From positions 22,982 through 86,981 of the IMG/VR virus record IMGVR_UViG_3300006100_000011: a DNA stretch of 64,000 bases. One strand, 5' to 3'. Source of the stretch: a virus. A program made the translations under genes and the position numbers. This document shows, one piece after another, positions 9,053 through 23,957 of this stretch. Below the pieces are notes generated by a model. It made no database searches, had not been told where the DNA came from, and saw nothing but the letters and a program-made list of their open reading frames with translations. Positions within the stretch are counted from its first letter, which is position 1, and every line of letters starts with the position of its first letter.

Positions 9053-9496
9053 ATGCTACCAGAAACACTTAAAACACTTTTGGCTTCAGCCTACACGCTT
9101 TCTATCAAGGCTCAACAGTTTCATTGGAACGTTGAAGGCCCTGACTTCCCCCAGTATCACGAGTTTCTAGGCAACTTCTATGAAGAAGTTTATGGAAACA
9201 CTATTGATAGACTAGCGGAAACTATTCGCCAGTTAGATGAATATGCTCCTGGCAGTCTCACTCGCTTTGCTGAGTTGTCACAAATCTCAGACCAGACTAA
9301 AGTTCCTCGTGCTGAATTGATGATGCAGGAACTATATCATGATAACGCTACGATTCTTGCTATGTACAAGCAAGCGTTTCATGTAGCTAATGATGCAGAT
9401 GAACAGGGCATTGCGAACTTCATTGCAGAGCGCATTGATGCTCACGCCAAGCATAATTGGATGTTGAGAAGTATTCTTAAAACTCAGAGAGCATAA
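9053..9496 (+). CDS. dps: Dps-like ferritin-fold protein
   Basis: 147-residue four-helix Dps/ferritin protein. The Dps signature is clear: QQFHWNVEGPDFPQYHEFLG (about 21-40), then DRLAE. His24, His36, Asp52 and Glu56 fit the ferroxidase ligands, though spacing between the second His and the Asp is one residue longer than in E. coli Dps. In bacteria Dps stores iron, removes peroxide and protects DNA. In a late phage unit it could protect or compact the genome. It overlaps the next ATG by one base. Confidence 0.85.
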   Translation: MLPETLKTLLASAYTLSIKAQQFHWNVEGPDFPQYHEFLGNFYEEVYGNTIDRLAETIRQLDEYAPGSLTRFAELSQISDQTKVPRAELMMQELYHDNATILAMYKQAFHVANDADEQGIANFIAERIDAHAKHNWMLRSILKTQRA

Positions 9497-12426
9497 TGAG
9501 AGCAAAACATTTTCTTGAACTATATGAGGCTCAGCAAGAGTTATTTGAAGTTGAAATGAGTCCTTCAAATCTCAAGAAGTTGGCCGCTGGTGTTCCTGGT
9601 GCCAAAGTTGGCATAGAGTTTGAAATGGTCGTCCCTGATGTTGAAATTGATGATGAAGATAGATATGACGAGCCAGAAGAAGATTATAGCCATGATCCAC
9701 GTCCCGATGATATTGATGACATCGTTCGTTTCTTTGGTGGTGAAGACGAGTATGTTGGACAACAGAATAGTGATCGTGAAGTAGAACGACTAGGCGAAGA
9801 ACTTACTGAAAAGTTTCATGAATGGCAAACTGAGCAGATTGACAATGATTGGAATGGTCCAGATGGTAAAGGCTTCTTTAGAGACTGGTGTCACAATAAC
9901 ATAAGTGATGAAGACGTTGCCGAGCATGTAGGCAAAGGAGAAGACTTATTCGGAGAAACAGTTCCCGACAAAGAAGATTGGGAAAAGTTTATTGAAGATG
10001 AATGGGACGAACAGGGCGATAATTATAATAGAGCCTATGAAGAATATATTGAAACTAAACGAGACGAAGGTGACTTTAGCGAAAGAGACTTTTTGCACGA
10101 CATTGGCATTGATGAGATGTCGGATGTTATGAGACGAGTTAACGCAAATATTTCGTGGCCATATTACACTGCGCCGGAATCTAGTTATGGTGGTGGTGAA
10201 GCCATTGAATCTATCGGTGATGATTTTAGTGAGGCAATTGGCAAAAAAGTTTATTCAAGCAGTGATTATCACGGCGCACGTAGAGCACCGGATGCATACT
10301 CATTAGAAACTGATAGTAGTATTAATCATAGATCAGGTGAAGCTGGATTAGAGTTTATCAGTCCTCCCATGCCTGTTGATGAAATGATTGAAGACTTAAA
10401 GAAAGTTAAAGAATGGGCTGATGACCGCGGAGCATATACTAATAATTCAACTGGTCTGCACATTAACGTTAGTGTTCCTAACTATAGTCGTGATGACCTT
10501 GACTATGTAAAGTTAGCTATATTACTTGGCGACAAGTATGTATTAGATAAGTTTGGACGTATTGGCAATACATATGCTAAATCAGCACTTGACATTATTA
10601 AAGAAAGAGCTAATAGTCCAGCAGATGTTGATAGACTATTAAAGCAATTAAAAGGCAATATGGAAACTATTGCTAGTAAATTAATTCACAGTGGTCGCAC
10701 TAACAAGTATACTAGTATTAATACTAAAGATAGCTACGTAGAATTCCGTAGTGCAGGTGGCGATTGGCTTGACAAAAACTTTGATAAGATTGAAGATACA
10801 TTATTGAGATTCGTAGTAGCACTTGATGCTGCCTGCGATCCAAAGAAGTATAAGAAAGAATACTTAAAGGGTTTGTATAAGTTGCTCAAGCCTAAGGATC
10901 CAAAGAGCGATATGAGCTATCTTGCTCGTTATATGGCTGGGGAAATCACTCGCTCAGAATATGCTAAGCAGCTTGAAAAAACTCGCACCGAACGTTTTAA
11001 AGACCAAGGTATTAGAATCCTTCACCCAGATGATGTTGAAGAAAACGATTGGGTAGTAGAATATAACGATGGTAAGAAAGAAAATACCATTTATATTGCA
11101 AACACTGATACAGTTCCTGATGAGTCATCCGCATTTAAGGCCGCACAAAAGTTCAAGCCAAATTGGTTTAGACCAGACACGATTGAATATATCACTGTAA
11201 AGCCATTTAAGTTTGACCCTTCATTAGATGATCTTAAACTATATCGTGCTGACTATGGTCATGGGCTTACCAGCGTTGTTGCAGAAAACGAAGAAGAAGC
11301 AAGAGATTATGTACTAGCAATGAATCCGGAATATTTTGCAGCACATCCCAATACTGAAATCACGTTGACTGACGAACATGCTAGTAAGCGTCAAATTAAT
11401 CAGATGATTGAATGGCAAACTAATAAAGTTCGTGAGGGTCTAGAATGGTCACAGCGTCCAAAGATTTGGCGTGTTAGAGTAGTTGATGGATCAAATGGTT
11501 ATCAACGCTACTTCTTTATAGCTGCAACTACAAGAGATAACGCAATTAATGTAGCGAATAAACTTGAAGGTGAAGACGTAGAAGGTATGCAAGGGTTTGA
11601 TATGTATATAGATCAAAACTATCCTGATGAGGACACATATCAAGAATATGAAAAAGCGCAAGAAGATTTAATTCAACAACGTGAACAAGAAAGACAGCGA
11701 GATAGAGAAACTACTGAGTTCAATAAAGCCGGCGAAGATGAAACTATTGACATTAGTAATCTAAAGACATATCGTTTAAGCAATTACAATGGTTATGCAT
11801 ATTTTGTTGCTGAAAATGGTGCTGAGGCTGTTGAAATAGCTATGAAATTAGAACCTGATAAGTTTGTTCGTCCAGAAGATATTACGGTACAAGATCAATC
11901 AGGTTTAGTATCTACCAGCCAGCCTTCGTTAATGCGTAGTATGTATAAGAGTCAGCAAGAAAAGTTAGCCCGTCTTGAGCAGTCTACTCAACCTGAGCAG
12001 TATAGCGTTTATGACACAAGCAATGGCCGCGGCGACAATATCTTTATTGCAGCAAGAACACCAGTTGAAGCGCATACAATCGCTGCTAGACTATACCCTG
12101 ATATCTTCAATGATGAAATAAGAACAGAGAGATATGGTGCCGCTACGCAAATGGATGCTAATAGATTATTGCGACAGCAAGCCGCAAGAGAGCAGGCATT
12201 AAGACAATCTAATCCACAATTTAGCGGATCATTTGGATCTCCAGAGCCTGCATTTAGTGAACCATCATCTACTAGACAGTCTTGGAGAGTTCAAAATGTA
12301 GACTCCGGAGAAGCTCGCTATTTCCCGGCTATTGATATGCAGGATGCTATTAACACAGCAAGACGAGAATATCCTGCAATGTTCCCACGATCTGCGGGAT
12401 TGTATGCTACACGAGCAAGTAACTAA
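9496..12426 (+). CDS. Amidoligase-like enzyme with six C-terminal repeats
   Basis: 976 residues. Residues about 35-430 match the glutamine-synthetase-like amidoligase fold: VGIEFEMVVP near 37, GLEFISPPMP near 284, STGLHINVSVPN near 318 and VEFRSAGGDW near 413. A very acidic insertion (55-200) separates the first two motifs. Such enzymes make amide or peptide-like bonds using ATP. The C-terminus has six degenerate repeats starting at about 518, 580, 657, 756, 836 and 929, each a beta hairpin, then an (A/N)-rich helix and a (M/F)xP-type turn. The start MRAKHFLELYEAQQELFE is CTS-like with LYE and LFE sites. Likely virion-associated; substrate unknown. Confidence 0.65.
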   Translation: MRAKHFLELYEAQQELFEVEMSPSNLKKLAAGVPGAKVGIEFEMVVPDVEIDDEDRYDEPEEDYSHDPRPDDIDDIVRFFGGEDEYVGQQNSDREVERLGEELTEKFHEWQTEQIDNDWNGPDGKGFFRDWCHNNISDEDVAEHVGKGEDLFGETVPDKEDWEKFIEDEWDEQGDNYNRAYEEYIETKRDEGDFSERDFLHDIGIDEMSDVMRRVNANISWPYYTAPESSYGGGEAIESIGDDFSEAIGKKVYSSSDYHGARRAPDAYSLETDSSINHRSGEAGLEFISPPMPVDEMIEDLKKVKEWADDRGAYTNNSTGLHINVSVPNYSRDDLDYVKLAILLGDKYVLDKFGRIGNTYAKSALDIIKERANSPADVDRLLKQLKGNMETIASKLIHSGRTNKYTSINTKDSYVEFRSAGGDWLDKNFDKIEDTLLRFVVALDAACDPKKYKKEYLKGLYKLLKPKDPKSDMSYLARYMAGEITRSEYAKQLEKTRTERFKDQGIRILHPDDVEENDWVVEYNDGKKENTIYIANTDTVPDESSAFKAAQKFKPNWFRPDTIEYITVKPFKFDPSLDDLKLYRADYGHGLTSVVAENEEEARDYVLAMNPEYFAAHPNTEITLTDEHASKRQINQMIEWQTNKVREGLEWSQRPKIWRVRVVDGSNGYQRYFFIAATTRDNAINVANKLEGEDVEGMQGFDMYIDQNYPDEDTYQEYEKAQEDLIQQREQERQRDRETTEFNKAGEDETIDISNLKTYRLSNYNGYAYFVAENGAEAVEIAMKLEPDKFVRPEDITVQDQSGLVSTSQPSLMRSMYKSQQEKLARLEQSTQPEQYSVYDTSNGRGDNIFIAARTPVEAHTIAARLYPDIFNDEIRTERYGAATQMDANRLLRQQAAREQALRQSNPQFSGSFGSPEPAFSEPSSTRQSWRVQNVDSGEARYFPAIDMQDAINTARREYPAMFPRSAGLYATRASN

Positions 12427-13616
12427 TGAGAGCTAATGAATTCATAACCAGTCAACAGTTGGATGAAGACTGGAAGAAAACTCTAGGCACAGTAGGCGCG
12501 GCTGGTGCATTAGCATTAGGTGCTCATTCTCTTATGAAGCCAAAAAATGACTTTCAGCCTGTTACTAGAATTGATTTGTCCGCACCAAAACCACTAGCTG
12601 CTAATGTATTGCATCAAGTTAAAGCAATCATGAATAAGCCCGCTGCAAAGATATTAAAAAATGCTGCTATTAAAGCAGGGTTGAAGGGTGCAGAGTTGCA
12701 ACAGTTCATGGCACAATGCGCCCACGAAACTCAGAACTTTTCTTCATTGAAAGAGTTCGGCGGCTCATTAGACTTTAGAAAATATGATCCAAAATATGCA
12801 CCAAAGAAAGCAGCAATACTAGGAAATACTAATCCCGGTGATGGTGTCAAATATCATGGGCGCGGATTTATTCAATTAACTGGTCGTGAAAACTACAAGA
12901 AAGCAGGCACTGCATTAGGACTTCCATTAGAGAAACATCCTGAGTTAGTTGAGAAGCCTAATGTAGCAGCTAAGGTTGCATTATGGTTTTGGCAGCATCG
13001 TGTATCACCTAAGGTAAATGACTTCACTGACACAGAACAGGCTACTAAACATATCAACTCTGGTCTTCATGGATTAGCCGACAGAGATAAAAAGTTTCAA
13101 GCACTACATCAACTAGCATATGTTAGAGAAGATGAGTTAGACGAATACAAAGCTGATAACGATATAAACGGTAAGGGACTTGGCACCACTGGTTATAACA
13201 GTAACGTAGACTATCGTGGATTAAGAGTATTGATGAAGCCAAGTGACTTCTTATCACTTGCTGCACATCTTCCAAGTCCAACAAGCGTTGATTATATCGT
13301 ACAGCACATGGAAAAGGGTGGAAGTTTAGGTTCTCCATTCTTGATCATTGACATTCCTGAAAAATACTTTGATGGTGACTTCACTGGCTTGAACTATGCA
13401 CAAGTTGTAGGGCATGAAGGTCGCAATCGTATGCTCGCTATTCAGAAAGTAGAAGGTGATGAGCCATGTGAAGTTCATATCTTTGGTTACGGAGAAATCA
13501 GAGCCAGACACTTTACACCGGAAATCATTGAGCAACTAGAGGTTGCAATGCGTAACCAAGATGGCAAGCTAGTGTTTGCTAAGCCTGGCCAATTATTATT
13601 TGAGCCAATGGCATAA
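12426..13616 (+). CDS. GH19-like endolysin fused to ParB-like domain
   Basis: 396 residues. After a CTS-like start (MRANEFITSQQLDE) and a hydrophobic stretch (about 18-38), residues about 55-230 form a glycoside hydrolase 19/lysozyme-like domain: FMAQCAHETQNFSSLKEF with the catalytic Glu, and YHGRGFIQLTGRENYKKAG. This cuts peptidoglycan or chitin-like chains. The last 150 residues are different, with AQVVGHEGRNRMLAIQ, a ParB/sulfiredoxin-like phosphate-binding motif. The ATG overlaps the stop of the amidoligase gene. The LDE site would release the enzyme if it is packaged and matured in the head. It may act at entry rather than at lysis. Confidence 0.75.
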   Translation: MRANEFITSQQLDEDWKKTLGTVGAAGALALGAHSLMKPKNDFQPVTRIDLSAPKPLAANVLHQVKAIMNKPAAKILKNAAIKAGLKGAELQQFMAQCAHETQNFSSLKEFGGSLDFRKYDPKYAPKKAAILGNTNPGDGVKYHGRGFIQLTGRENYKKAGTALGLPLEKHPELVEKPNVAAKVALWFWQHRVSPKVNDFTDTEQATKHINSGLHGLADRDKKFQALHQLAYVREDELDEYKADNDINGKGLGTTGYNSNVDYRGLRVLMKPSDFLSLAAHLPSPTSVDYIVQHMEKGGSLGSPFLIIDIPEKYFDGDFTGLNYAQVVGHEGRNRMLAIQKVEGDEPCEVHIFGYGEIRARHFTPEIIEQLEVAMRNQDGKLVFAKPGQLLFEPMA

Positions 13617-13622
13617 AAAAGG

Positions 13623-13651
13623 TTGACAACGGTACACACCAATGATATAGT
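13623..13651 (+). promoter_or_regulatory. Early-type promoter (TTGACA-17-TATAGT)
   Basis: TTGACA at 13623-13628 and TATAGT at 13646-13651 with exactly 17 bp between them, just after the endolysin stop. Confidence 0.6.
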
Positions 13652-13667
13652 GATATTTGTCAGCAGT

Positions 13668-13675
13668 GATAAATA
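13668..13675 (+). promoter_or_regulatory. Late promoter (GATAAATA)
   Basis: GATAAATA 27 bases before the ATG at 13703, in tandem with the early-type promoter at 13623; an AAAAAGGG ribosome site follows. Confidence 0.6.
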
Positions 13676-13702
13676 CTCTATCAAAACAAAAAGGGTTATA
13701 AA

Positions 13703-14032
13703 ATGAAGATTAACGAACTGCTCATGGAATCGTTTGATGACGAAGAAGAACTTGACATCGTAGACGATCCGGATACTGATAAGGTTCCTCACATCGTAAT
13801 GCAGTTCAAGAAGGCTCTTGACAACGGTGGTCGTTCGCCTGTTATCTTCAAGGACGGTGATAAGGTGAGCATCCCTGTTGCTGTTATGGCTGACTTCCTA
13901 AACGGCTATGATTCAATGAAGCCGTTTGAGCGTGAAGAATTGCAGAAGGTTGCAACTCAGAGCCTAGAACACTTCAAGGAAGCACTTCGTACTATGAAGC
14001 GTAACACTATGCATAAGAGTATCTACCGTTAA
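13703..14032 (+). CDS. Unknown small late protein with CTS-like start
   Basis: 109 residues, no family recognised. It starts MKINELLMES, with an LME site, like the proteins at 2950 and 12426. An acidic segment (10-27) is followed by a mixed alpha/beta region and a basic C-terminus (TMKRNTMHKSIYR). Both an early-type and a late promoter precede it, so it may be made throughout infection. An internal head protein is the simplest inference. Confidence 0.6.
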   Translation: MKINELLMESFDDEEELDIVDDPDTDKVPHIVMQFKKALDNGGRSPVIFKDGDKVSIPVAVMADFLNGYDSMKPFEREELQKVATQSLEHFKEALRTMKRNTMHKSIYR

Positions 14033-14076
14033 TTTGACCTACGTCAAAACCGTGTAGTTATTTTTACTCCCATATT

Positions 14077-14115
14077 GCTAAATACATATGAAGCCCGTAG
14101 TTAATCTACGGGTTT
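14077..14115 (+). promoter_or_regulatory. Late promoter followed by 5'-end hairpin
   Basis: GCTAAATA at 14077-14084. A 10-bp stem (AAGCCCGTAG/CTACGGGTTT, 14091-14115, 5-base loop, one G-T pair) starts about six bases later, where transcription should begin, so the mRNA would carry a 5'-terminal stem-loop. The next gene starts at 14139. Confidence 0.6.
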
Positions 14116-14138
14116 CCTATAATACAATAGGAGTACGA

Positions 14139-14420
14139 ATGGGAGAGTTCTTTAATTTAGTAGCCCAGGTTGGCTTTCCAATCGCTGCTGCATGTGGCGC
14201 TGGTTACTTCGTATTCCTTACATTGAAGTTTATTCTTGCGGGTGTGTCTGGTAGCGTATCAGGCATGAAAGGGATCATTTCTTCTCTTGACAATCGTGTT
14301 AAGACAATGAACCATGATGTCATTCGAATTGATACAGTAGTTAGTAATGCTCTTGGCCTAAAACCAGACGTAGATCGCATTGCTCGTGCTGATGGTAAGA
14401 CGGATGCAAGGAGAGACTAA
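14139..14420 (+). CDS. Small membrane protein, paralogue of the 14573 product
   Basis: 93 residues: an N-terminal membrane segment (about 6-34, VAQVGFPIAAACGAGYFVFL) then a soluble helical part with heptad-like spacing (SLDNRVKTMNHDVIRIDTVV). The ATG at 14139 has an AGGAG site; the in-frame ATG at 14088 lies within the 5' hairpin. The N-terminal GFPI-AA-G-GY pattern and the coil are shared with the 14573 product, so the two arose by duplication. A holin- or spanin-like role is possible but unsupported by motif. Confidence 0.6.
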   Translation: MGEFFNLVAQVGFPIAAACGAGYFVFLTLKFILAGVSGSVSGMKGIISSLDNRVKTMNHDVIRIDTVVSNALGLKPDVDRIARADGKTDARRD

Positions 14421-14572
14421 TGCTTATTGTAGAATGTTGGCTAGACGTTCATAATAATGGAAGCATCACGATAGATGAAGATGCGTCCAGACATTTGAAG
14501 GTTGAGGAAGGAGACGAGTTTGTTGCGTTTATACGTGATGAACGTGTGATATTGGTAAAGAAGAAGAAATAA
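14420..14572 (+). CDS. AbrB/MazE-like swapped-hairpin small protein
   Basis: 50 residues between two paralogous membrane-protein genes, overlapping the first stop by one base and abutting the next ATG. The pattern GSITIDEDASRHLKVEEGDE, then VAFIRDERVILVKKKK, fits the AbrB/SpoVT swapped-hairpin DNA-binding fold seen in transition-state regulators and MazE antitoxins. It may be a small transcription regulator for this block. Family call is by pattern on a short sequence. Confidence 0.55.
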   Translation: MLIVECWLDVHNNGSITIDEDASRHLKVEEGDEFVAFIRDERVILVKKKK

Positions 14573-14881
14573 ATGGGCAGTGGATTAGCAGACTTAATCA
14601 ACAAATATGGATTCCCCATCATTGCTGCTGGCGGCATGGGATACCTCATATATTATGTATGGGAGTGGGCAACCAAAGAAGTTAAGCCTGTTCTCAGTGA
14701 AGCTAATACCACGTTGATTGCTCTAATTGATCGCATTAGAATGCTAGACAATGACTTGATTCGTTTAAATCAAAAAGTGAACACCGTATTGCACTTGCGC
14801 GGTAAGACTATTGAGCATGAACGTGTTGAAGCAGAACATATTATCAACCAGCCAAAGAAAGCAGAAGAACATAAGAAATAA
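14573..14881 (+). CDS. Small membrane protein with coiled coil
   Basis: 102 residues. A membrane segment (about 12-32, GFPIIAAGGMGYLIYYVW) is followed by a coiled coil (LIDRIRMLDNDLIRLNQKVN) and a charged His/Glu/Lys tail. It is a paralogue of the 14139 product. Position immediately before csgF suggests a membrane helper for that block or a lysis accessory; neither is shown by sequence. Confidence 0.6.
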   Translation: MGSGLADLINKYGFPIIAAGGMGYLIYYVWEWATKEVKPVLSEANTTLIALIDRIRMLDNDLIRLNQKVNTVLHLRGKTIEHERVEAEHIINQPKKAEEHKK

Positions 14882-14897
14882 TACTAGGGAGAGAATA

Positions 14898-15344
14898 ATG
14901 ATAAGAAAAATAATGATATTACTTTCTCTATGTGCAAGTAGTACAGCATATGCAGATCCAATAGTACAGCAATTCAAAGACCCATCCTTTAGTGGCTATG
15001 GCTGGTCTACTCATGTCCTACAAGTTGAAGCAGCAATGGAAGCACATAAAGCATCAAACGATAATGCTATTGCTACTGCTCAAGCAAATGCTGTATCAGC
15101 CGCTGCAAATACTCCATTAGCAAAGTTCATCAATCTATTCACTAGCCAAGTATATGCACAACTTGCTACACAGTTGTCTAATAATCTATTTCAAACAGGT
15201 GGCTCGGCTACTACTGGCACATTTAACTTAGATGGTAACACTATTAGCTATGTGAAAACAGGAACTAATGTTCAACTTACTGTAATAGACAAGACGGGTA
15301 ATCAAACTGTAGTAACAGTTCCGATTGCTACGTTTGCGTTTTAA
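14898..15344 (+). CDS. csgF: CsgF-like curli assembly factor
   Basis: 148 residues. A signal peptide (about 1-19, ending STAYA) is followed by QQFKDPSFSGYG, matching the CsgF N-terminus that plugs the CsgG pore (FxNPxFGG in bacteria). A helical central part (TPLAKFINLFTSQVYAQL) and a C-terminal beta part (TFNLDGNTISYVKTGTNVQL, then VTVPIATF) resemble CsgF. In bacteria CsgF sits on the CsgG channel and anchors the first curli subunit. The ATG at 14898 follows TAGGGAGAG; the ORF extends upstream but only this start gives a signal peptide. Next gene is csgG, as in curli operons. Confidence 0.85.
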   Translation: MIRKIMILLSLCASSTAYADPIVQQFKDPSFSGYGWSTHVLQVEAAMEAHKASNDNAIATAQANAVSAAANTPLAKFINLFTSQVYAQLATQLSNNLFQTGGSATTGTFNLDGNTISYVKTGTNVQLTVIDKTGNQTVVTVPIATFAF

Positions 15345-15354
15345 GGAGTAAGTT

Positions 15355-16182
15355 ATGAAGAAACTTATTCTATTATTAGCTGCTACCACGATGCTTACAG
15401 GGTGTGTTGGTGCAATACATCCTAGACTAAACCAAGACAACGAATTATTACGCTCTAAGCCAAAAGTAGTTACTTTTGCTAATAAAAAAGTGTTCGATTC
15501 TATTCCTGAATTAGATGGGCCACCAATTCCTATTGCAGTATATGCATTCACAGATAAGACTGGACAAAGAAAGCCATCATCAACTACAGCGTCATTTAGT
15601 AGCGCAGTAACACAAGGCGGTGAGGCTTATCTAATCAAGACATTGGGTGATGCGGCAGGCGGCAAATGGTTTAAACCAGTTGAACGTGTTGGCATTGATA
15701 GTCTCATTAAAGAACGTCAATTGATTCGTCAAATGCGTGAACAAGAATTCGGTGAAAAGGCTGAACCTCTGCCGCCATTAATGGTTGCAGGCCTTATCAT
15801 TGAAGGTGGTATTATTGATTACAATAGTAACACTAAAACAGGAGGTAATGGTGTTCGTTACTTAGGAATAGGTCCGAACACTCAGTACAGTGAAGATATG
15901 GTCGTCATCAGTATGCGACTTGTATCAACACAAACCGGTGAAGTGCTAGATAGTGTTACTGTAACCAAGACAGTACTATCAACATCTGAAGGGATCACTG
16001 CTTTTAAGTTCTTTGATTTAGGAACACAAGCATTTGAACTTGACGGGCAGCAAACAGCAAACGAACCGGGAAGTTATGCTATACGCAGTGCCATAGAACT
16101 CGGTGTAGCAGAACTAATTAAAAGTGGTGAAAAGAAAGGACTTTGGCACTATAAAACCACTATTACTAAAGCAACAAAATAA
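15355..16182 (+). CDS. csgG: CsgG-like curli secretion channel lipoprotein
   Basis: 275 residues. The lipoprotein signal peptide ends in LTGC (Cys17). The mature part has CsgG features: IPIAVYAFTDKTGQRK, GGEAYLIKTLGDA, WFKPVERVGIDSLIKERQ, a GLIIEGGIIDYNSN membrane-strand region, VVISMRLVSTQTGEVLDSV and a C-terminal helix. CsgG forms a nonameric outer-membrane pore exporting curli subunits. AGGAG at the normal distance. It is preceded by csgF and followed by a curlin-like gene 11 bases on. Length is about that of bacterial CsgG. Confidence 0.9.
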   Translation: MKKLILLLAATTMLTGCVGAIHPRLNQDNELLRSKPKVVTFANKKVFDSIPELDGPPIPIAVYAFTDKTGQRKPSSTTASFSSAVTQGGEAYLIKTLGDAAGGKWFKPVERVGIDSLIKERQLIRQMREQEFGEKAEPLPPLMVAGLIIEGGIIDYNSNTKTGGNGVRYLGIGPNTQYSEDMVVISMRLVSTQTGEVLDSVTVTKTVLSTSEGITAFKFFDLGTQAFELDGQQTANEPGSYAIRSAIELGVAELIKSGEKKGLWHYKTTITKATK

Positions 16183-16193
16183 GGATTATAACG

Positions 16194-16988
16194 ATGAAAA
16201 TAATAATGAAAGCACTAATTCTTGGTTCGTTGTTGGTATCGGGCACTGCATTTGCTCAGCAAGCAAGCACTCCTACTACAGCAGTTCTTCCTACTGCGCC
16301 GACTCCTCCTGCTATTGTAACTACTTCACCGAACGAAGTTGAAGCAGCAGCAGTGGCAACAACTAACAAAGTATACATCAATCAGTCAGGCGGTAGTGTG
16401 AATGTCAACATTCAACAGACTGGCACTGCTGATATAGTCGGCACATTAGCTGATCCTATCTATCTACGTGGTGATAGCAACGCTGTTACTGTTATTCAAA
16501 CTGGTAACAGCAACACACTATTAATGGGTATTGTCGGTGATACTGGCGCAGGAACAGGCACCAATTCTACTATTAGACAGATTGGAAACAACAACAGTGC
16601 TGATATTCGTTGCGGAACTTATCAGAATGATGCAAATTGTAATGGATTGAATCTAAATGACAAGTTTGTTGGTAACAACAATACTCTTGCATTCCACGGC
16701 GCAGCAGCAAACATTACACAAACAATTGATACTAACGGCAACAATAATGCAATTACTGTTACTGTCACTGCTCCTAATTCTTCACAGAACTTGTATTTCA
16801 CTGGTGATAGCAACACTATCAATGTAACACAAACTGATACGGCCGGCACATACGGGCACAGTTTATGGGCCAACTTCACTGGAAGCAACAACACGGTAAC
16901 AACGCAGCAGTATGGTGCGTCAGAAACTGTTGTTCACATTCAAAGTGTAGGGTCTAATGGCGTTTACAATATCAAAACTGGTCACTAA
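16194..16988 (+). CDS. Secreted curlin-like (CsgA/CsgB type) repeat protein
   Basis: 264 residues with signal peptide (ending GTAFA). After a Pro/Thr-rich linker (20-55) come Asn/Gln/Thr/Gly-rich repeats built on the curlin core: VNVNIQQTGTADI, DSNAVTVIQTGNSNT, NSTIRQIGNNNSADI, NTINVTQTD, NTVTTQQYG. These fit the (S/N)-x5-Q-x-G-x-(N/S)-x-(A/I) strand-loop-strand of amyloid subunits. Repeats are less regular than in CsgA and are interrupted by a segment with two Cys. Inferred role: extracellular amyloid exported through the neighbouring CsgG/CsgF. The coding region overlaps the next gene by 32 bases. Confidence 0.75.
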   Translation: MKIIMKALILGSLLVSGTAFAQQASTPTTAVLPTAPTPPAIVTTSPNEVEAAAVATTNKVYINQSGGSVNVNIQQTGTADIVGTLADPIYLRGDSNAVTVIQTGNSNTLLMGIVGDTGAGTGTNSTIRQIGNNNSADIRCGTYQNDANCNGLNLNDKFVGNNNTLAFHGAAANITQTIDTNGNNNAITVTVTAPNSSQNLYFTGDSNTINVTQTDTAGTYGHSLWANFTGSNNTVTTQQYGASETVVHIQSVGSNGVYNIKTGH

Positions 16989-18120
16989 GACTCTTGGAAT
17001 CCTATTGCTTGCTTTAGCCTCACCCGCTTTAGCAAGCATAGGTTCCATAACAGAGGCAAAAGGCGGAGGGCAGATCAGAAGAGGGCCCAGTGCTATGCCT
17101 GCTGGTAGAGGTGCCGGCATTGAAAAGATGGATACTGTCTCTACTAATAGTCAAGGCAAGTTCAAGATAGTGTTTGTTGACGCTACTACAGTCAACATTA
17201 CTGAAAATAGTAGACTTGTCATTGACGCCTTTGTGTTTGATAATAACAATAAAGCTAAAGGAAAATTAGGACTTAAGGTAGCATTAGGCACTGTGCGCTA
17301 TGCATCAGGTGCTCTCGCTCACGGTAATCCAAAAGGTGTAAACATTCGCACACCAACTGCTACTATTGCTGTTCGTGGTACAGACTTTGTTATGAGTGTT
17401 GATGAAGCTGGCCGCTCAACAGTTGTTCTGGTTCCAAGTTGCTTTGACGATAAAGATATTACCAAAACAAACTTTGATTGTCCAGCTGGCGCAATTGATG
17501 TTATAACGGCATCAGGTGTTGTGTCAATGACTAAGCCATTCCAAGCAACTGTTGTAGAGAATGCATTTGCTCCCCCAAGTCCGCCGGTCATCGTTAATCC
17601 AGCAATGAAAGCACTTAACAATACGATTCAGATTGCTCCACTAGCTACAGATGATGGGCAGAGCTTGCTTAAGGTAGCAAGAGAGGCAGTAAAAAAGTTT
17701 GTTAACCCTTCTAAAGCTGCATCAGATGATAACAAGGACCCTAACTCCGGAACAGGAGACAACGTTGAACAAGTTGCAATAGCTATTCAACCAAGACAGG
17801 CTACGCAAGCTGAGATTGAACAGGTCTATGAGGACATTAATGGTGCGTTACCTAAACAAACCATATACACAAACGTTTCACCCACGTATAGAAAGAAAAT
17901 TCAAGAGGGTTGGGTCTATGCAAGAATATCTGATGATAAAAATCAGATAGTAGGAGTTTGGGTCCCTAAAGATTCAGAAGTACAAGTCGTATCATCACAG
18001 AATGGCATCGTTGACGCATATAACTTTATGGATCACAAATGGACTACATCAGGTACAGGTAGACCCCAAGGTACTATCACTGTTATACAGAACGGTGCTC
18101 CACCGGACATGAACAAATGA
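16957..18120 (+). CDS. Secreted FecR-domain protein
   Basis: 387 residues with a signal peptide (about 1-26, ending ASPALA). Residues about 30-175 are a FecR beta domain: GSITEAKGGGQIRRG, MDTVSTNSQGKFKIVFVDAT, and VNIRTPTATIAVRGTDFVM, the strongly conserved FecR core. The C-terminal half is not recognised but has a YxNVSPTYRKKIQEGWVY segment. In bacteria such proteins often sit next to CHASE2-cyclase genes, as here. The start lies inside the curlin-like gene, a 32-base overlap, implying coupled translation. Confidence 0.8.
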   Translation: MAFTISKLVTKTLGILLLALASPALASIGSITEAKGGGQIRRGPSAMPAGRGAGIEKMDTVSTNSQGKFKIVFVDATTVNITENSRLVIDAFVFDNNNKAKGKLGLKVALGTVRYASGALAHGNPKGVNIRTPTATIAVRGTDFVMSVDEAGRSTVVLVPSCFDDKDITKTNFDCPAGAIDVITASGVVSMTKPFQATVVENAFAPPSPPVIVNPAMKALNNTIQIAPLATDDGQSLLKVAREAVKKFVNPSKAASDDNKDPNSGTGDNVEQVAIAIQPRQATQAEIEQVYEDINGALPKQTIYTNVSPTYRKKIQEGWVYARISDDKNQIVGVWVPKDSEVQVVSSQNGIVDAYNFMDHKWTTSGTGRPQGTITVIQNGAPPDMNK

Positions 18121-19304
18121 GAAAGTTAATTGCTCTCTTTATGTTATTGTGGTCGTCAATGGCCTATGCCACTACGTTTGCTGATCTAAAGTTTGGTGCC
18201 GCACAATTCAGCGATACACAATGGAATGTCAGTGCTTGTTTATATACGAATACTTGTCAAATCTATAGCCTCAGTGGTATAGGAACAAGTTGGAATACTG
18301 GATCACCATATCATCTTTCATCAACTCAGTATATACAGTTCTCACCGAGCGGCAATCCAAGTTACCCCTGGACGATGAAAGTCTATAATAGCAATGGAAC
18401 ACTTGTCGCTAATCTAGGCAATGGCAAATTAACTGTGCAGGGATTAGGTACCGATAGCTCAGGTCACCATTTCTTCTTCTTCACTAACGCTAACTATAAC
18501 GGTACTGTATTCAGCACTGACTATGGTTTTCCCAACAACAATGGATTCAGCTTTACTGGTACATTGAATCCTACAACTACACAGACTGATAGTTTTGCTA
18601 GTAGTGGTTCAACTACTCCACTAAATGCAGGTCAAACATATACTTCTGCTCCTACCTACCCTCTAGCAACTATTACGTCAACCGAACAAACTAAGATCAA
18701 CCAGACAACAACTATTGGTTACAATTCAGTCTATATCAGTCAATCAGGTGGCGATAATACAAATGTCACTGTCACTCAGACGGGAGACTTCAATGCTGTA
18801 CGAGGAGTTAATGGTACTCAATCTTTCACTATCACAGGTGGATCAAATGCGTTGAATGTCACACAGGGTAGTCAGACTATATCAGGGTATCATAACCTAG
18901 TTGAAGGTTCTATTAATGGAACAGGGAACAATTTGACGATAAATCAGCAGGGTACCGCAAATTATGAACAAGCATTGATCAGTGGTAACGCAAATGTTAT
19001 TAGCAACCAGTTATCAGGTGGTAATAAAAGTTTGTTTGAGAATGTATCTAACAATAATAACACCATAAACACTTCTCAGGTAGGTACTGGCAATCACTTT
19101 CTAGAACTAAACATACCAACGAGCGGAAACAATGTATCTGTCACACAATCGGGCGCAGCACAGAAAATGTTCTCTTTAACGCTAAATAATAATAACATCG
19201 GCGTAACTGTAACTCAAGATAACGCAACTACTAGTGATAGTGCTGCTATGTCTATCACTTGCACTTCCGGCCCATGTACTGGATACACATACACGAAACA
19301 CTAA
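18117..19304 (+). CDS. Second curlin-like repeat protein
   Basis: 395 residues with signal peptide (ending SMAYA). The N-terminal 180 residues are a separate beta-rich domain (aromatic, Gly/Ser/Thr-rich). From about 205 come curlin-type repeats: SVYISQSGGDNTNVTVTQTG, NALNVTQGSQ, NNLTINQQGTAN, NTINTSQVGTGNH, NNVSVTQSGAAQ, IGVTVTQDNA. Two Cys lie near the C-terminus (CTSGPCTG). The non-repeat head suggests a nucleator or tip subunit like CsgB rather than the main fibre. The ATG overlaps the FecR gene stop by four bases. Confidence 0.75.
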   Translation: MRKLIALFMLLWSSMAYATTFADLKFGAAQFSDTQWNVSACLYTNTCQIYSLSGIGTSWNTGSPYHLSSTQYIQFSPSGNPSYPWTMKVYNSNGTLVANLGNGKLTVQGLGTDSSGHHFFFFTNANYNGTVFSTDYGFPNNNGFSFTGTLNPTTTQTDSFASSGSTTPLNAGQTYTSAPTYPLATITSTEQTKINQTTTIGYNSVYISQSGGDNTNVTVTQTGDFNAVRGVNGTQSFTITGGSNALNVTQGSQTISGYHNLVEGSINGTGNNLTINQQGTANYEQALISGNANVISNQLSGGNKSLFENVSNNNNTINTSQVGTGNHFLELNIPTSGNNVSVTQSGAAQKMFSLTLNNNNIGVTVTQDNATTSDSAAMSITCTSGPCTGYTYTKH

Positions 19305-19314
19305 AGGATAGTTT

Positions 19315-21369
19315 ATGAATAAGTTAAAGAAAGTTTTATTGAGTCCCTGGCTAGCATTATTTACAGTAGGATTACTTCTTGTTGTTAAGTTAAGCAATCC
19401 ATATATGGTTGACGCAATGAAACTTAAGTTCTATGACTATTTGATGCTAGGTAAGCCAGTACATTCGGAACAGATTGTAGTTGCAAATATCGGGGAGAAA
19501 GCGATTGAGAAATATGGGCAGTATCCTTTTCCAAGGGAAGTTTATGCTAAGATTATTACTGATATTTATGGCAGAGGTGCTGGTCTTGTCGGCAGTACTA
19601 TTCTTATGCCTGAATCTGATCGCTTTGGCACCGACCACGTACTAGTAGATACACTAAAGAAGTATCCGGTTGTACTTAGTCAGACTGTAACGTCGGATTG
19701 CTCTGCATCAAGGAAAGACCAAACGATTCGTCGGACTGGAGTTGCTGTGATTGGGGACGGGCAACCATCCGAGTTCTTACCTCAATATCCATGTGTCTTA
19801 TCCAATATCTCAAGTTTTCAAGATGCTGCCGTAGGGGTAGGTATAACTTCAACTCTTCCTGAATCTGATGGTGTTGTTCGTCGTGTACCCCTGCTTGCCC
19901 AATCAAAAGGCGAATTTTATCCTGCGTTTGGGCTTGAGTTAATTCGAGTTGCGTCAGGAGATCCTTCATACCAAGCGAAGGTAAATCAGACAGGTGTTGA
20001 GGCATTACGTGTTCCTTCTTTCAATACTATTAAAACTGATGAATATGGTCGCGTTTTTACGAACCCGAATTACGTATTCTCATCGTTTGAAGTAGGCGAG
20101 AATATTCCTCGTCTCGATGGTAAGATCGTTCTACTCGGTGTGACTGCGAATGGCGTTGTAAATCCCGTAGCAACTCCAAATGGTGCCCAAATGCCGCATC
20201 AGCTTCAGGCCAGTCTTCTTCAGACGTTGATAAATGGGGATTCAGTGTCAATTCCGAATTGGGTAAGTCTGGTTGATCTTGCTGCATTCTTCATCCTTTC
20301 ACTTGCAATCATCATTCTATCAAGAGTACGCTACTCTATAGTTTGGATACTTATATTACTAGCAGGCTATGTATACGCACCATATTATCTATATGCACAC
20401 AACAAGATTCTAGTTGACATTTCATTCAACGTTGTTGCAGCAGTGCTTATTTATATGCATATCTATACTGCAAAGTTTATTAGTGAGTTCCTTCAAAAGC
20501 AACAGATTAAGAAACAGTTTGGTACTTACTTGTCACCTGATCTTGTCGCACAATTGCAGCGTCAACCTGACCTACTACAACTAGGCGGCACCGAACAAGA
20601 ACTATCAATTATGTTCACCGACGTTCGTGGATTCACTACAATTAGTGAACACTATGGTAAAGATGTTCAAGGCTTGACAAAGATCATGAACCGCTATATG
20701 ACTGCTATGACTAAGGCAATTTTAGAAAACAAGGGTACGCTTGATAAGTATATCGGTGATGCTCAAATGGCTTTCTGGAACGCACCATTGAACAATGAGC
20801 AACATGCATTGGACTCAGTAAGAACTGCGTTCCAAATGCTTAAATCGTTAGAGGACTTCAATGCAGAAATTAAAGAAGAAGGCATACCAGCTTTTGGAAT
20901 GGGTCTCGGTATTAATACTGATACCGTTGTTGTTGGCAATATGGGTAGTGATCAGCGTTTTGACTATACTTGCCTCGGTGACGGAGTTAATTTGGCGTCT
21001 CGTCTCGAAGGTCAAAGCAAACCATATGGCGTCAAAATCATCATTGGACCAAAGACCGCCGAGTATGTACGACATACATACCAAGTCATTGAACTTGACT
21101 TACTTGCAGTCAAGGGAAAGACAGAACCTGTAAAAATCTACACTGTTCTTGAGAGTTTTTATGAAGAAGATGAGAAAGCTCATATTCGCTTCCTAGATTA
21201 TTATCGTAAGGGTGAGTGGGAAACAGCAGAAACTTTTGCTCATAACTTAAAGAAATCTTGGAATGGTGAATTAGATAAGTACTATGATGCAATGATTGAA
21301 AGAATTGAAGAATACAAGGCTAACCCACCAAGTAACTGGGACGGCGTGTATAGAGCAACTTCTAAATAA
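19315..21369 (+). CDS. CHASE2 sensor - class III adenylate cyclase
   Basis: 684 residues. An N-terminal membrane helix (about 12-28), a periplasmic CHASE2 domain (about 30-310), three membrane helices (about 320-390), then a class III cyclase (about 425-600). The catalytic domain has both metal aspartates (MFTDVRGFT and YIGDAQMAFW), the Lys in LDKYIGD and Thr in FDYTCLGDG that specify ATP, and the transition-state Asn/Arg in GVNLASRLEG. So it should make cAMP. A charged tail of about 70 residues follows. It lies 10 bases after the second curlin gene. Phage-encoded membrane cyclases are rare; this one looks intact. Confidence 0.9.
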   Translation: MNKLKKVLLSPWLALFTVGLLLVVKLSNPYMVDAMKLKFYDYLMLGKPVHSEQIVVANIGEKAIEKYGQYPFPREVYAKIITDIYGRGAGLVGSTILMPESDRFGTDHVLVDTLKKYPVVLSQTVTSDCSASRKDQTIRRTGVAVIGDGQPSEFLPQYPCVLSNISSFQDAAVGVGITSTLPESDGVVRRVPLLAQSKGEFYPAFGLELIRVASGDPSYQAKVNQTGVEALRVPSFNTIKTDEYGRVFTNPNYVFSSFEVGENIPRLDGKIVLLGVTANGVVNPVATPNGAQMPHQLQASLLQTLINGDSVSIPNWVSLVDLAAFFILSLAIIILSRVRYSIVWILILLAGYVYAPYYLYAHNKILVDISFNVVAAVLIYMHIYTAKFISEFLQKQQIKKQFGTYLSPDLVAQLQRQPDLLQLGGTEQELSIMFTDVRGFTTISEHYGKDVQGLTKIMNRYMTAMTKAILENKGTLDKYIGDAQMAFWNAPLNNEQHALDSVRTAFQMLKSLEDFNAEIKEEGIPAFGMGLGINTDTVVVGNMGSDQRFDYTCLGDGVNLASRLEGQSKPYGVKIIIGPKTAEYVRHTYQVIELDLLAVKGKTEPVKIYTVLESFYEEDEKAHIRFLDYYRKGEWETAETFAHNLKKSWNGELDKYYDAMIERIEEYKANPPSNWDGVYRATSK

Positions 21370-21396
21370 GTAGGGTTGCTAAAAAGGAGAAGTAAA

Positions 21397-21606
21397 ATGA
21401 AGAAACTACTACTAGCAACTGCTGTTCTAATGGGAGCAACATCTGCATGTGCGTCTACCCCAGCCCCTAAGGGACATTGGGTACAGGGTGCAAACAAGAT
21501 GGCAATTTTTGTTCCAGCTAAGAATGAAGCAAACTGCAAGCTAACTGGCCCAAGTTGGACTCCTGGTCCACGTGGCGTGTTTGGCTATCATTATAATTGC
21601 AAGTAA
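21397..21606 (+). CDS. Small secreted protein
   Basis: 69 residues with signal peptide (MKKLLLATAVLMGATSACAS; the Cys could also serve as a poor lipobox). The mature 50 residues contain KGHWVQGANKMAIFVP and two Cys. No family recognised. The ATG follows an AAGGAG site; it is the last gene before the porin promoter and may be part of the secreted block. Confidence 0.6.
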   Translation: MKKLLLATAVLMGATSACASTPAPKGHWVQGANKMAIFVPAKNEANCKLTGPSWTPGPRGVFGYHYNCK

Positions 21607-21640
21607 TTGCCCAAATAAATTGCAGTTAATGCAATAATAC

Positions 21641-21678
21641 TGTAAATAGTATAGAAGACTCATGCATACTGCATGTCT
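21641..21678 (+). promoter_or_regulatory. Late promoter followed by 5'-end hairpin
   Basis: TGTAAATA at 21641-21648, then a 9-bp stem with a 2-base bulge (AGA-CATGCA/TGCATG-TCT, 21656-21678) beginning about where the transcript should start. It precedes the porin gene. Confidence 0.55.
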
Positions 21679-21699
21679 CTATCATATAAAGGATATACT

Positions 21700-22422
21700 A
21701 TGATTTTTAAGAAGACTATTCTCGCAGTAGTTGCTGCTCTTGGATTCGCTTCCGCTGCACACGCTACTGATCTTTCCGGCAATATCACTGTTTCGTCAGA
21801 CTATCGTTATCGCGGCGTCAGCCAAACTAACGTAGGACCTGAAGTATCGGGTAACCTTGACGTTACTGATAAGAGCGGTCTATATGCAGGCACGTTCTTT
21901 AGTAACGTTTCTAGTGAATATTACACCGGTGGGGCTGGTTACGAAGAAGATTTTTACGTTGGATACAAGCATGAAGTTGCTAAGGGTCTTACTCTTGACG
22001 TAGGTTCTTACACTGACACTTACTTCCATGCTAAGAACGGTAATGTTTCGTATACTACTAGTGAAGCATATCTTGCTGCTACATATGGTCCAGTTACTGT
22101 AAAGGGTAGCCACTCTTTCACTAACTACTTTGGTATTCCAAATACCCATGGCACTCATTATGTAACTGCTGATGTTTCTCAGCCAGTTGGTCCAGTTACT
22201 TTGATCGCACACTATGGTCATACGTTCACTGCACACCACAATAACTACGACTATAATGACATTAACTTCGGCGCTAGCTATAATCTCCCTAAGGGATTCA
22301 CTGTTACTGGTCTTTACTATGTCAACACCAATGAAGGTGCAGGCATGAAGGCATACAACAGTGTTAATGGTCATGGACTTTATGGAAATAACTTTGTTGT
22401 TTCTTTGAAGAAGAACTTCTAA
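21700..22422 (+). CDS. TorF-type outer-membrane porin
   Basis: 240 residues with signal peptide (ending AHA). The mature start TDLSGNITVSSDYRYRGVSQ is the hallmark of the TorF/Gcw_chp putative porin family. Alternating beta strands follow and the protein ends in an aromatic residue (VVSLKKNF), as needed for BAM-dependent insertion. The ATG at 21700 has AAAGGAT upstream. It has its own late promoter and terminator, so it is expressed as a single late gene. Possible roles: changing outer-membrane permeability or masking the phage receptor. Likely acquired from a proteobacterial host. Confidence 0.85.
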   Translation: MIFKKTILAVVAALGFASAAHATDLSGNITVSSDYRYRGVSQTNVGPEVSGNLDVTDKSGLYAGTFFSNVSSEYYTGGAGYEEDFYVGYKHEVAKGLTLDVGSYTDTYFHAKNGNVSYTTSEAYLAATYGPVTVKGSHSFTNYFGIPNTHGTHYVTADVSQPVGPVTLIAHYGHTFTAHHNNYDYNDINFGASYNLPKGFTVTGLYYVNTNEGAGMKAYNSVNGHGLYGNNFVVSLKKNF

Positions 22423-22446
22423 GTAACACTTAATAGTCACTTTACT

Positions 22447-22481
22447 AACGGCGGGGAGTAAAATCCTCGCCGTTATTTTTT
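22447..22481 (+). terminator. Rho-independent terminator
   Basis: An 11-bp stem (AACGGCGGGGA/TCCTCGCCGTT, one G-T pair) with a 6-base loop, followed by ATTTTTT. It ends the porin transcript and lies directly against the next late promoter. Confidence 0.85.
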
Positions 22482-22482
22482 G

Positions 22483-22490
22483 TCTAAATA
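22483..22490 (+). promoter_or_regulatory. Late promoter, leaderless type (TCTAAATA)
   Basis: The motif ends five bases before the ATG at 22496, so the predicted transcript begins at or within the start codon. No ribosome-binding site is present. Confidence 0.55.
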
Positions 22491-22495
22491 TATCT

Positions 22496-23044
22496 ATGAA
22501 GATAGGCCTTAGTAAATCTGTAATCACCCAAGATGGTGTGACTTATGATGCCATTGAGCAGGGATGGTACAATACCATTCGTGGGCATAGCCTATTTGTC
22601 GTCCCCAACACAATGAATCAAGACTTCAATGCAATGGCCAATGACCTAGACTCATTGATTATCACTGCTGGAAATGACAACGCAACAAGACGTAACGTTG
22701 AAATAGAACTAGCTAACAAGATGCTTGAACGTGGCAAACCTGTCGTGGGTATTGCGAGAGGTGCCTTTTTAGCTGCGGAAATGATCGGTGGCACAGTTGA
22801 ACCGATTAATAATCACAATGGATTGGATCATCCCATCTTCTATCATAGAGAAGTACGCGAAGTTAACAGCAATCATGGCTACTGCATCAAAAGTCTACCT
22901 GATAGTGCAAACATTCTTTGCTTAGATTACTTGGGTAATCCAGAAGCGTTTATCAATGGTAACATCGCAGGCATTGTTTGGAATCCAGAAAGGATGAAGG
23001 AACCTTGGATTCCGCCTGAAATCGCATATATGCTCCGCATTTGA
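22496..23044 (+). CDS. Glutamine amidotransferase (class I) fold, catalytic residues lost
   Basis: 182 residues resembling the peptidase C26/PuuD branch of class I glutamine amidotransferases: LIITAGNDN, KPVVGIARGAFLAAEMIGG, EVNSNHGY and GIVWNPERM. In active members the nucleophile elbow reads GxCRG and the His-Glu pair reads WHPE. Here the Cys is Ala and the His is Asn, so both catalytic residues are missing. It probably acts as a binding protein. The gene starts five bases after a TAAATA promoter without an RBS. Confidence 0.75.
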   Translation: MKIGLSKSVITQDGVTYDAIEQGWYNTIRGHSLFVVPNTMNQDFNAMANDLDSLIITAGNDNATRRNVEIELANKMLERGKPVVGIARGAFLAAEMIGGTVEPINNHNGLDHPIFYHREVREVNSNHGYCIKSLPDSANILCLDYLGNPEAFINGNIAGIVWNPERMKEPWIPPEIAYMLRI

Positions 23045-23050
23045 TAAATA
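23043..23050 (+). promoter_or_regulatory. Late promoter, leaderless type (GATAAATA)
   Basis: Overlaps the stop of the previous gene and ends five bases before the ATG at 23056; no ribosome-binding site lies between. Confidence 0.6.
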
Positions 23051-23055
23051 TATTG

Positions 23056-23634
23056 ATGCGAGCTAAACAATTCATTATAGAATCCCCTGTTGACGAACTG
23101 GCTGAGAAGTTACCTTCTCTAGCCAAGCACGACTATGACACCATAGATAAGTTGATGCGTAAGATTGCTGAAAAGCACAAGATCACAGGTAAAGCATTGC
23201 ATGATCTATTTGTCAAAAAGTACAAGAAAACACCTGATACTTGGGTTAAGGGCAAGCTAGATGAATCTGATAAAGATAATCTTGACCTTGATGCAGAAGT
23301 ACAAAAGTTTGCCGAGTGGGCAATGCGTAGAGTACACTTAGAGAATCCAATCAAGATTGACTTAAGCTATGACACTAAGGATGCCCAAGACAATCATCAC
23401 ACTGGTCGTCATATTGAGGGTGATCCTACTATCTGGGTATATGCAAAGAATCGCAATCTTGTAGATATCCTTCGCACAGTATTTCACGAAATCGTACACT
23501 GCCGTCAAAGCGAACTAGGCATGATCAAGCCAGGTGATAGCTATCCTGGCTCACCTATAGAAGCAATGGCTGATATGCTTGCTGGGAAATATATTAAGAT
23601 TTACGGCGAAAAGCATCACTATATCTTTCAATAA
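23056..23634 (+). CDS. HExxH zinc metallopeptidase-like protein with CTS-like start
   Basis: 192 residues. The C-terminal half carries TVFHEIVHCRQSELG (HExxH zinc site) and a downstream IEAMADMLAGKY with a candidate third ligand Glu, as in small phage and bacterial gluzincin-like peptidases. The N-terminus MRAKQFIIESPVDE has an IIE head-protease site, and residues 20-65 form a Lys-rich helical segment. The ATG at 23056 follows the TAAATA motif by five bases. Inference: a protease packaged in the head and delivered with DNA; a maturation role is an alternative. Confidence 0.7.
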   Translation: MRAKQFIIESPVDELAEKLPSLAKHDYDTIDKLMRKIAEKHKITGKALHDLFVKKYKKTPDTWVKGKLDESDKDNLDLDAEVQKFAEWAMRRVHLENPIKIDLSYDTKDAQDNHHTGRHIEGDPTIWVYAKNRNLVDILRTVFHEIVHCRQSELGMIKPGDSYPGSPIEAMADMLAGKYIKIYGEKHHYIFQ

Positions 23635-23649
23635 CGGTTACCAATATAG

Positions 23650-23677
23650 TTGAATTCTCTGCGTAGTCTGTTATAAT
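23650..23677 (+). promoter_or_regulatory. Early-type promoter (TTGAAT-16-TATAAT)
   Basis: TTGAAT 23650-23655 and a perfect TATAAT at 23672-23677; AGAAGGAG follows before the ATG at 23700. Probably drives the polymerase operon. Confidence 0.6.
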
Positions 23678-23699
23678 AACTAGACTAGAAGGAGAAAAC

Positions 23700-23957
23700 A
23701 TGTCACGTACATTTAATCAAGAAGCTAAGGTCAAGTTGACCCAGCTCATCAACGAGGGTATCTCGGTTATTCAAGAAGTCGAAACTCTCAACGAAGGTCT
23801 TAACGATACTGTTAAGGCAATTGCAGAAGAACTTGAAGTCAAGCCCTCGATTCTTAAGAAGGCTATCAAGATTGCTTACAAGCAGCGTCTCAATGAGACG
23901 AATGAAGAAAACGAAGAACTCAACAACATCCTGGAGACCGTTGGTAAGACTAACTGA
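23700..23957 (+). CDS. Small helical protein, possible DsbA-type DNA-binding protein
   Basis: 85 residues, almost all helical, with acidic C-terminus. The layout (KEAIKIAYKQRLNE-like central basic helix after EELEVKPSILKKAIK) loosely recalls T4 DsbA, a small late-promoter DNA-binding protein of 89 residues. Strong AGAAGGAG site; the stop overlaps the polymerase ATG by one base, so the two are co-translated. Identification is weak. Confidence 0.45.
   Translation: MSRTFNQEAKVKLTQLINEGISVIQEVETLNEGLNDTVKAIAEELEVKPSILKKAIKIAYKQRLNETNEENEELNNILETVGKTN

Follow-up and report, generated by a model that had tools for sequence, protein, structure and literature searches.

Export of curlin subunits through CsgG and CsgF, with fiber growth on the cell, is the established biology of these protein families. 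Phage curli were reported in 2020, and the suggestions published on their function range over sibling-cell capture, uptake, masking, and lysis. The closest description (PMC9599517, from 2022) is of a module of csgF, csgG, csgA/B, FecR, a second csgA/B, and adenylate cyclase from two pelagiphage families; one or two genes named "histidine kinase" lie ahead of it, and a list of hypotheses is given. In addition, csgF and csgG are described from pelagimyophages, and as absent from the freshwater genomes of the same study, with sibling capture proposed (PMC7029224), and a lysis role was proposed for the curli genes of phage Melnitz (PMC9004378). Here we analyze a block of six such genes in a 64,000-nucleotide stretch of viral DNA ("the window," positions 22,982 to 86,981 of IMG/VR record IMGVR_UViG_3300006100_000011). 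The original prediction, made from the letters alone, knew of no set with subunits and a cyclase in addition to csgG and csgF; this has to be withdrawn, and we reject novelty of the gene set, since HTVC008M and Melnitz carry all six genes in this order and PMC9599517 describes them so. In the Pelagibacter phage HTVC008M they are deposited as CsgF, CsgG, "curlin minor subunit CsgB," two hypothetical proteins, and "adenylate/guanylyl cyclase."

We read the block as a phage-encoded type VIII secretion system (T8SS, or curli) module, by which infected cells would display phage curli with exchangeable adhesin heads, together with envelope-linked cyclic AMP (cAMP) signaling; the sequence evidence makes this reading probable, if well short of certain. 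The features, numbered along the window, are as follows.

TmA, 14139 to 14420, + strand: 93 residues, hydrophobic in one N-terminal segment and with a polar tail; PHROG 18771.
Small open reading frame (ORF), 14420 to 14572, + strand: 50 residues, weakly AbrB/MazE-like (Pfam AbrB-like, E 0.0093, below cut-off); at most a candidate member of the module.
TmB, 14573 to 14881, + strand: 102 residues, a relative of TmA; PHROG 18771.
csgF, 14898 to 15344, + strand: T8SS assembly and anchoring factor with a signal-peptide-like N terminus; Pfam PF10614, 7e-16.
csgG, 15355 to 16182, + strand: outer-membrane secretion pore lipoprotein with lipobox LTGC; Pfam PF03783, 8.1e-50.
cur1, 16194 to 16988, + strand: secreted curlin-repeat subunit (CsgA/B-like), predicted to be all beta and solenoid-like.
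FecR-domain protein, 16957 to 18120, + strand: signal-peptide-like N terminus; Pfam PF04773, 4.5e-12.
cur2, 18117 to 19304, + strand: second curlin-repeat protein, with an N-terminal head domain.
Head domain of cur2 (named ND1), 18171 to 18656, + strand: mobile among relatives.
CHASE2 class III adenylate cyclase, 19315 to 21369, + strand: membrane protein; Pfam CHASE2, 3.2e-33, and Guanylate_cyc, 2.4e-19.

Sequence comparison establishes the identities of these genes, their order, their conservation under selection, the linkage of TmB to csgG, and the exchange of domains in cur2. The tight + strand packing of csgF, csgG, two curlin-type genes, FecR, and the CHASE2 cyclase that the original prediction described is confirmed by ORFs and Pfam matches for all six, adjacent genes overlapping or sitting 10 to 11 bases apart (the longest ORF of csgF starts at 14811). 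In the search for conserved synteny that it proposed, 160 csgG-seeded viral loci were compared: csgF, csgG, and curlin follow one another in 153, FecR comes next in 131, and all six genes stand in order in 71; many of the 160 loci are cut by contig ends. A curlin gene is the immediate successor of csgG in 155/160 loci, csgF comes before csgG in 157/160, and FecR follows in 133/160 (the locus sets overlap, some contigs being present twice). All eight module proteins (the six plus TmA and TmB) are 100% identical in a second assembly of 113,555 bases (L004; L numbers denote our loci), and CsgG is 100% identical in L005 as well. Guanine-cytosine (GC) content is 0.408 in the block and 0.414 in the window. 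The identical second assembly, the order kept in 153/160 viral loci, and the matching GC content all contradict a chimeric assembly or host fragment, the concern attached to the original prediction; we reject it and give it practically no credence. Ratios of nonsynonymous to synonymous differences (pN/pS) between the window and L006, L008, and L009 are 0.10 to 0.49 for module genes and lowest, 0.10 to 0.19, for TmA and TmB, values that are rough with synonymous sites near saturation (pS 0.61 to 0.82).

The csgG product can be aligned to structures of E. coli CsgG across almost all of its residues (1.1e-43), and a single-sequence search of CsgF against the PDB returned no solved CsgF, only chance-like matches. 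For cur1 alone the Curlin_rpt match is weak (21.9 bits, with a Pfam cut-off of 20.7), and the curlin assignment becomes firm only with its relatives, because all 11 of 11 invariant columns among 45 cur1 proteins are Q, G, or N and because the hits of a 42-row cur1 profile include 8c50, a curlin of solved structure (E = 3e-11), and CsgA of E. coli (8enq; 0.0047). Curlin_rpt itself is matched at E 0.01 in 24 of the 45. The predicted cur1 model is all beta (pLDDT, the model's own confidence measure, 82.7); in VIA-align its top match is 8c50 (Z 18.8, root-mean-square deviation [rmsd] 8.7 over 198 residues), on a par with SufD (Z 18.5, rmsd 2.4).

The gene between fecR and the cyclase occupies an exchangeable slot. 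The curlin part of the window cur2 begins around residue 200 (Curlin_rpt, 14.7 bits, under the Pfam cut-off), preceded by the head at residues 19 to 180, which recurs at varying positions in L054, L058, L065, L070, L071, L075, L079, L092, L099, L152, and others. Proteins at the cur2 position end in curlin repeats, where at least 90% of them share a pair of cysteines, and have the N-terminal part swapped: among 62 of them, chosen for diversity from 121 complete ones with 8 short ones omitted, we find F5/8C domains in 13 to 14, PA14 in 6, GLEYA in 3, and Curlin_rpt in 22 (E 0.01). After clustering at 90% identity, 71 recognized slot proteins comprise 41 with heads and curlin, 25 with curlin only, 4 with an autotransporter barrel, and 1 with heads and no curlin part detected; these counts omit 99 of 206 ORFs between fecR and cyclase that match no profile, mostly unrelated phage genes with some short repeat proteins. 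The barrel proteins lie in L094, L117, L121, and L151; that of L121 (15471-17819) has a Pfam barrel match of 1.2e-14 beside an F5/8C domain, and that of L151 (15833-17956), with no Pfam match to the barrel, is recognized by its similarity to L121. Both also have a threonine-rich stalk and the same kinds of head domain as their curlin-based relatives.

These swapped heads point to adhesion, and the heads, occasionally mounted on an autotransporter barrel, are sequence evidence favoring adhesion over a bare pore. The same parts could serve superinfection exclusion or receptor masking, an option given in PMC9599517, in which a fiber coat shields the infected cell from competing phages. Such a coat is compatible with every part, and variable heads could cover different receptors; the F5/8C, PA14, and GLEYA heads fit attachment to sugars outside the cell at least equally well, and we consider masking distinctly unlikely as the main function.

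Directly upstream of csgF on the + strand, and not mentioned in the original prediction, lie TmA and TmB, two mutually related proteins with a single N-terminal hydrophobic segment (of modest score, 1.09, in TmB) and a polar tail. Neither matches Pfam at E 0.1; in NCBIfam, TmA has no match and TmB a single one, which is weak and unrelated. Judged by position, they are probably the genes named "histidine kinase" in PMC9599517. We reject that function for them: no HisKA or HATPase domain was found, and 93 and 102 residues are too short. CsgG was found in all 29 of the 29 distinct TmB-bearing contigs longer than 100 kilobases (kb) that were searched whole, and four further TmB contigs above this length (L084, L134, L135, and L161) have csgG within the retrieved stretch. 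From each TmB-seeded scan the best 80 loci were taken; in the first set, core curli genes are present in 63 of 80, and 17 have none in the retrieved stretch. For 13 of these 17, no more than about 1.1 kb separates the last module gene from the contig end; in L096, TmB sits at one end and 4.2 kb are free of curli genes; csgG lies elsewhere on the L114 contig; and it was not found in the contigs of L116, L154, L108, and L136. Seen from the other side, where 9 kb or more was retrieved on each side of csgG, both Tm genes occur in 35 of 38 loci, and the remaining three (L049, L051, and L052) have TmB elsewhere on the contig, the L049 copy being cut by the contig end. Their placement varies, on the strand opposite csgG in 14, 36, and 0 loci across three sets of 80, and with tmA between csgF and csgG in 13 HTVC-like loci. 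The TmB profile matched 0/300 bacterial genomes of one order, which shows little without a bacterial positive control; this profile does detect TmB in the window's own record.

A reading that puts the pore first takes CsgG-CsgF as a regulated outer-membrane hole, for lysis timing or nutrient uptake, with the fiber genes secondary; versions of it are the lysis role in the Melnitz paper (PMC9004378) and uptake, one option in the pelagimyophage paper (PMC7029224). Consistent with it are the CsgE gate not found in the 86,981-base record, a GH19 endolysin-like gene at 12426-13616, and a weak holin PHROG match of TmB (E 0.0093). It is also consistent with smaller residues in the narrow ring: at the positions that we take to form the ring of E. 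coli CsgG, Tyr and Asn become Ser in the window CsgG, which retains the Phe, and HTVC008M and Melnitz have Leu in place of this Phe. However, a pore alone would hardly explain why curlin so regularly follows csgG (155/160) or why its Q/G/N repeat columns are invariant; a GH19 of the window's type was found in 6, 6, and 0 loci, respectively, per set of 80; and TmB, accompanied by csgG in every large TmB contig searched whole, is unlike a general lysis gene. We find the pore-first reading unlikely, though not negligible. For the same reason (29/29) TmA and TmB as a general lysis pair are not supported.

The catalytic residues of the cyclase are intact (D436, K478, D482, T552, N559, and R563); presumably these are two metal-binding Asp, the Lys and the Thr/Asp for the substrate, and the Asn and Arg of the transition state. 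Across 121 distinct proteins the D, K, and D are kept in all 121, and Asn is replaced by Ser in 39. Because the catalytic residues are intact, it is plausible that the cyclase raises cAMP, as originally proposed. FecR anti-sigma regulators carry an N-terminal cytoplasmic, sigma-binding part ahead of the membrane segment. The sole hydrophobic stretch of the FecR-domain protein starts at residue 13, leaving no space for a cytoplasmic anti-sigma part; with this signal-like N terminus a role as iron-citrate sigma regulator is not supported, and we consider a periplasmic partner of CHASE2 the likelier role. Removal of CHASE2 from Sinorhizobium meliloti CyaD1 makes cAMP production constitutive (PMC5498481), and by analogy CHASE2 is probably a brake on the cyclase, released by envelope events. 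The S. meliloti targets of Clr include a FecR-domain protein, SMc02177 (PMC5498481).

In the mechanism that we propose, the host Sec system would carry the subunits across the inner membrane, and cur1 would leave through the CsgG-CsgF pore to form a curli-type fiber on the infected cell. The cur2 protein would co-assemble through its curlin repeats and present its exchangeable binding head, and the fibers would stick infected cells, or their remains, to neighboring cells or particles, compatible with the published "sibling capture." The periplasmic FecR protein and the inner-membrane CHASE2 cyclase would probably sense the state of envelope or pore and make cAMP, with TmA and TmB as dedicated membrane partners, perhaps substituting for the CsgE gate or coupling pore to cyclase. 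From secretion, fiber formation, and adhesion to cAMP output and the parts of FecR and TmA/TmB, these steps are inferred from the gene content.

The curlin and cur2 proteins might decorate virions or the lysate instead of the living cell, helping free particles attach to cells or surfaces. The head domains do resemble binding modules, and the time of expression is not fixed: the T4 late promoter motif TATAAATA occurs twice in the window, with 4.09 expected, once inside the cyclase gene on the - strand, and not at all on the + strand near the block. Sigma-70-like sites in 12000-24500 number 34, with 31.9 expected, and since the count is about the expectation single sites carry little meaning. 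A dedicated outer-membrane secretion pore and anchor kept together with the subunits nevertheless argues for display on the cell, and we hold virion decoration to be very improbable.

Several observations weigh against cell-surface display with adhesin heads and linked signaling. No match to csgE (PF10627) was found in the 86,981-base record, which is possibly incomplete, in agreement with the original prediction, which did not see csgE (no search for csgC or csgD was made). The gate is present in E. coli, and all Alphaproteobacteria are described as being without CsgE (PMC3521004). Foldseek gave no solved fold for the cur1 model at E 0.001. The window cur2 head has no Pfam match, and its predicted structure is not reliable (the cur2 model has a mean pLDDT of 59.3, most of the head being below 50), so that a binding role for it rests on relatives, and the heads are dispensable, since 28 of 144 loci with both flanking genes have no space for a slot gene. 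TmB is missing from five csgG contigs of 16 to 46 kb (L058, L068, L070, L076, and L079), all ending less than 10 kb downstream of csgG, and Melnitz-infected cells showed no clumping under the conditions of the authors (PMC9004378). Finally, the original prediction that FecR and CHASE2-cyclase genes occur together in bacteria stands only in part: among the best 30 listed CHASE2 loci of the order of a Polaromonas metagenome-assembled genome (MAG), a FecR-domain ORF lies within about 1.5 kb in 2, and one lies near the CHASE2 gene of this MAG itself (L250), with most loci lacking a FecR neighbor in a test that used the phage FecR profile, which distant FecR proteins may escape. FecR is also near CHASE2 in L252, from a MAG containing phage-like contigs.

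The phage itself is not of the pelagiphage type and belongs to another lineage, with jumbo relatives, as judged by its DNA polymerase (23957-26665), which is nearest to those of the jumbo phages Phosso (469 kb, 47.5%) and Atu_ph07 (490 kb, 46%). The polymerase was matched in 25 of 31 records searched, with 6 giving no match; L004 is the same phage, identity is 80% in the contig of L007 (360,683 bases) and 79% in that of L054, and eleven contigs of 212 to 383 kb have polymerases, some of them split, that are 53 to 62% identical. We infer that the window's phage is itself a jumbo phage, its own record being an 86,981-base fragment. The polymerases of L025 and L040 are 43 to 44% identical to that of HTVC008M and about 26% to that of the window, and their CsgG proteins are 73 to 74% identical to the window's, compared with 58% for L054. 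Because CsgG similarity and polymerase similarity disagree in this way, the curli module has crossed between phage lineages. In the titles and opening lines of abstracts returned by our literature search, none was found on curli in jumbo phages. A search of 50,697 phage records found the cyclase at full length, FecR, and TmB only in 6 records of HTVC008M and Melnitz, and two Acinetobacter-labeled records match the cyclase domain alone.

We further suggest, tentatively and inclining slightly against rather than for it, that the eight genes including TmA and TmB form a programmable adhesion device, in which a cassette slot would swap heads, and now and then the stem for an autotransporter barrel, and which would move between jumbo and smaller T4-type phages like tail-fiber tips, letting the phage choose what its host sticks to.

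Some further observations concern the carriers and the surroundings of the module. The contigs of L009, L010, and L086 have the polymerase gene in two pieces 1.1 to 1.6 kb apart, resembling an intein, intron, or homing-gene insertion, and the contig of L125 (383,411 bases) has CsgG matches near both ends (2238-2870 and 382836-383402), which suggests either that the genome is circular or permuted and its ends overlap or that there are two copies. A scan of bacterial genomes for csgG relatives gave 6 loci; L164, L165, and L166, on MAG contigs labeled Rhodobacteraceae and Flavobacteriaceae, show the complete gene order of the phage module, TmA/TmB included, and probably belong to phages whose contigs were binned with bacterial MAGs. 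A 1,499-base record labeled Salmonella phage (OR851715.1) contains an unannotated csgG-like stretch, and its label looks doubtful. In the window, a Gcw_chp/TorF-family outer-membrane porin gene follows shortly after the cyclase (21673-22422; matched at E 1e-5 in only 3 of the first 84 sequences searched), with a 12-pair terminator-like hairpin after it (22446-22475), and upstream of the module (9496-13616) a 976-residue amidoligase-family protein precedes the GH19 gene.

Adhesion becomes directly testable with these exchangeable heads, one after another, and in TmA/TmB the module has specific candidates for the gate that is missing or for a coupling part. Compared with E. coli curli, the window shares the CsgG and CsgF families, curlin repeats, and a profile match to CsgA, and differs in that CsgE was not found and that FecR, cyclase, TmA/TmB, and a headed second curlin are added. 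Its cyclase resembles CHASE2 class III cyclases such as S. meliloti CyaD1 in combining CHASE2, membrane segments, and the catalytic domain in one protein, and unlike them sits inside a phage curli block. The Methylophilales phage Melnitz (MZ577096) has the six genes and the TmA/TmB pair in the same order, with a cur2 of repeats only in place of the window's headed one; PMC9004378 describes csgA and csgB as lacking, whereas the record (L003) names two curlin repeat proteins. The pelagiphage module (HTVC008M and HTVC023P-type podophages; PMC9599517, PMC7029224) agrees with the window in its six genes, their order and strand, and the lack of csgE. It differs in its carrier, the HTVC008M polymerase being 25.5% identical to the window's and the latter 46 to 47.5% identical to those of its nearest jumbo phages, and in the genes before csgF, which PMC9599517 calls "histidine kinase" and which in the window encode short proteins lacking a kinase domain; the main text of that paper does not use the words adhesin, lectin, transmembrane, or jumbo. 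Carriage by a jumbo-phage lineage means that the curli system is not peculiar to phages of SAR11 and OM43, and relative to the literature that we found, this carrier, the adhesin slot, and TmA/TmB as non-kinase partners are new.

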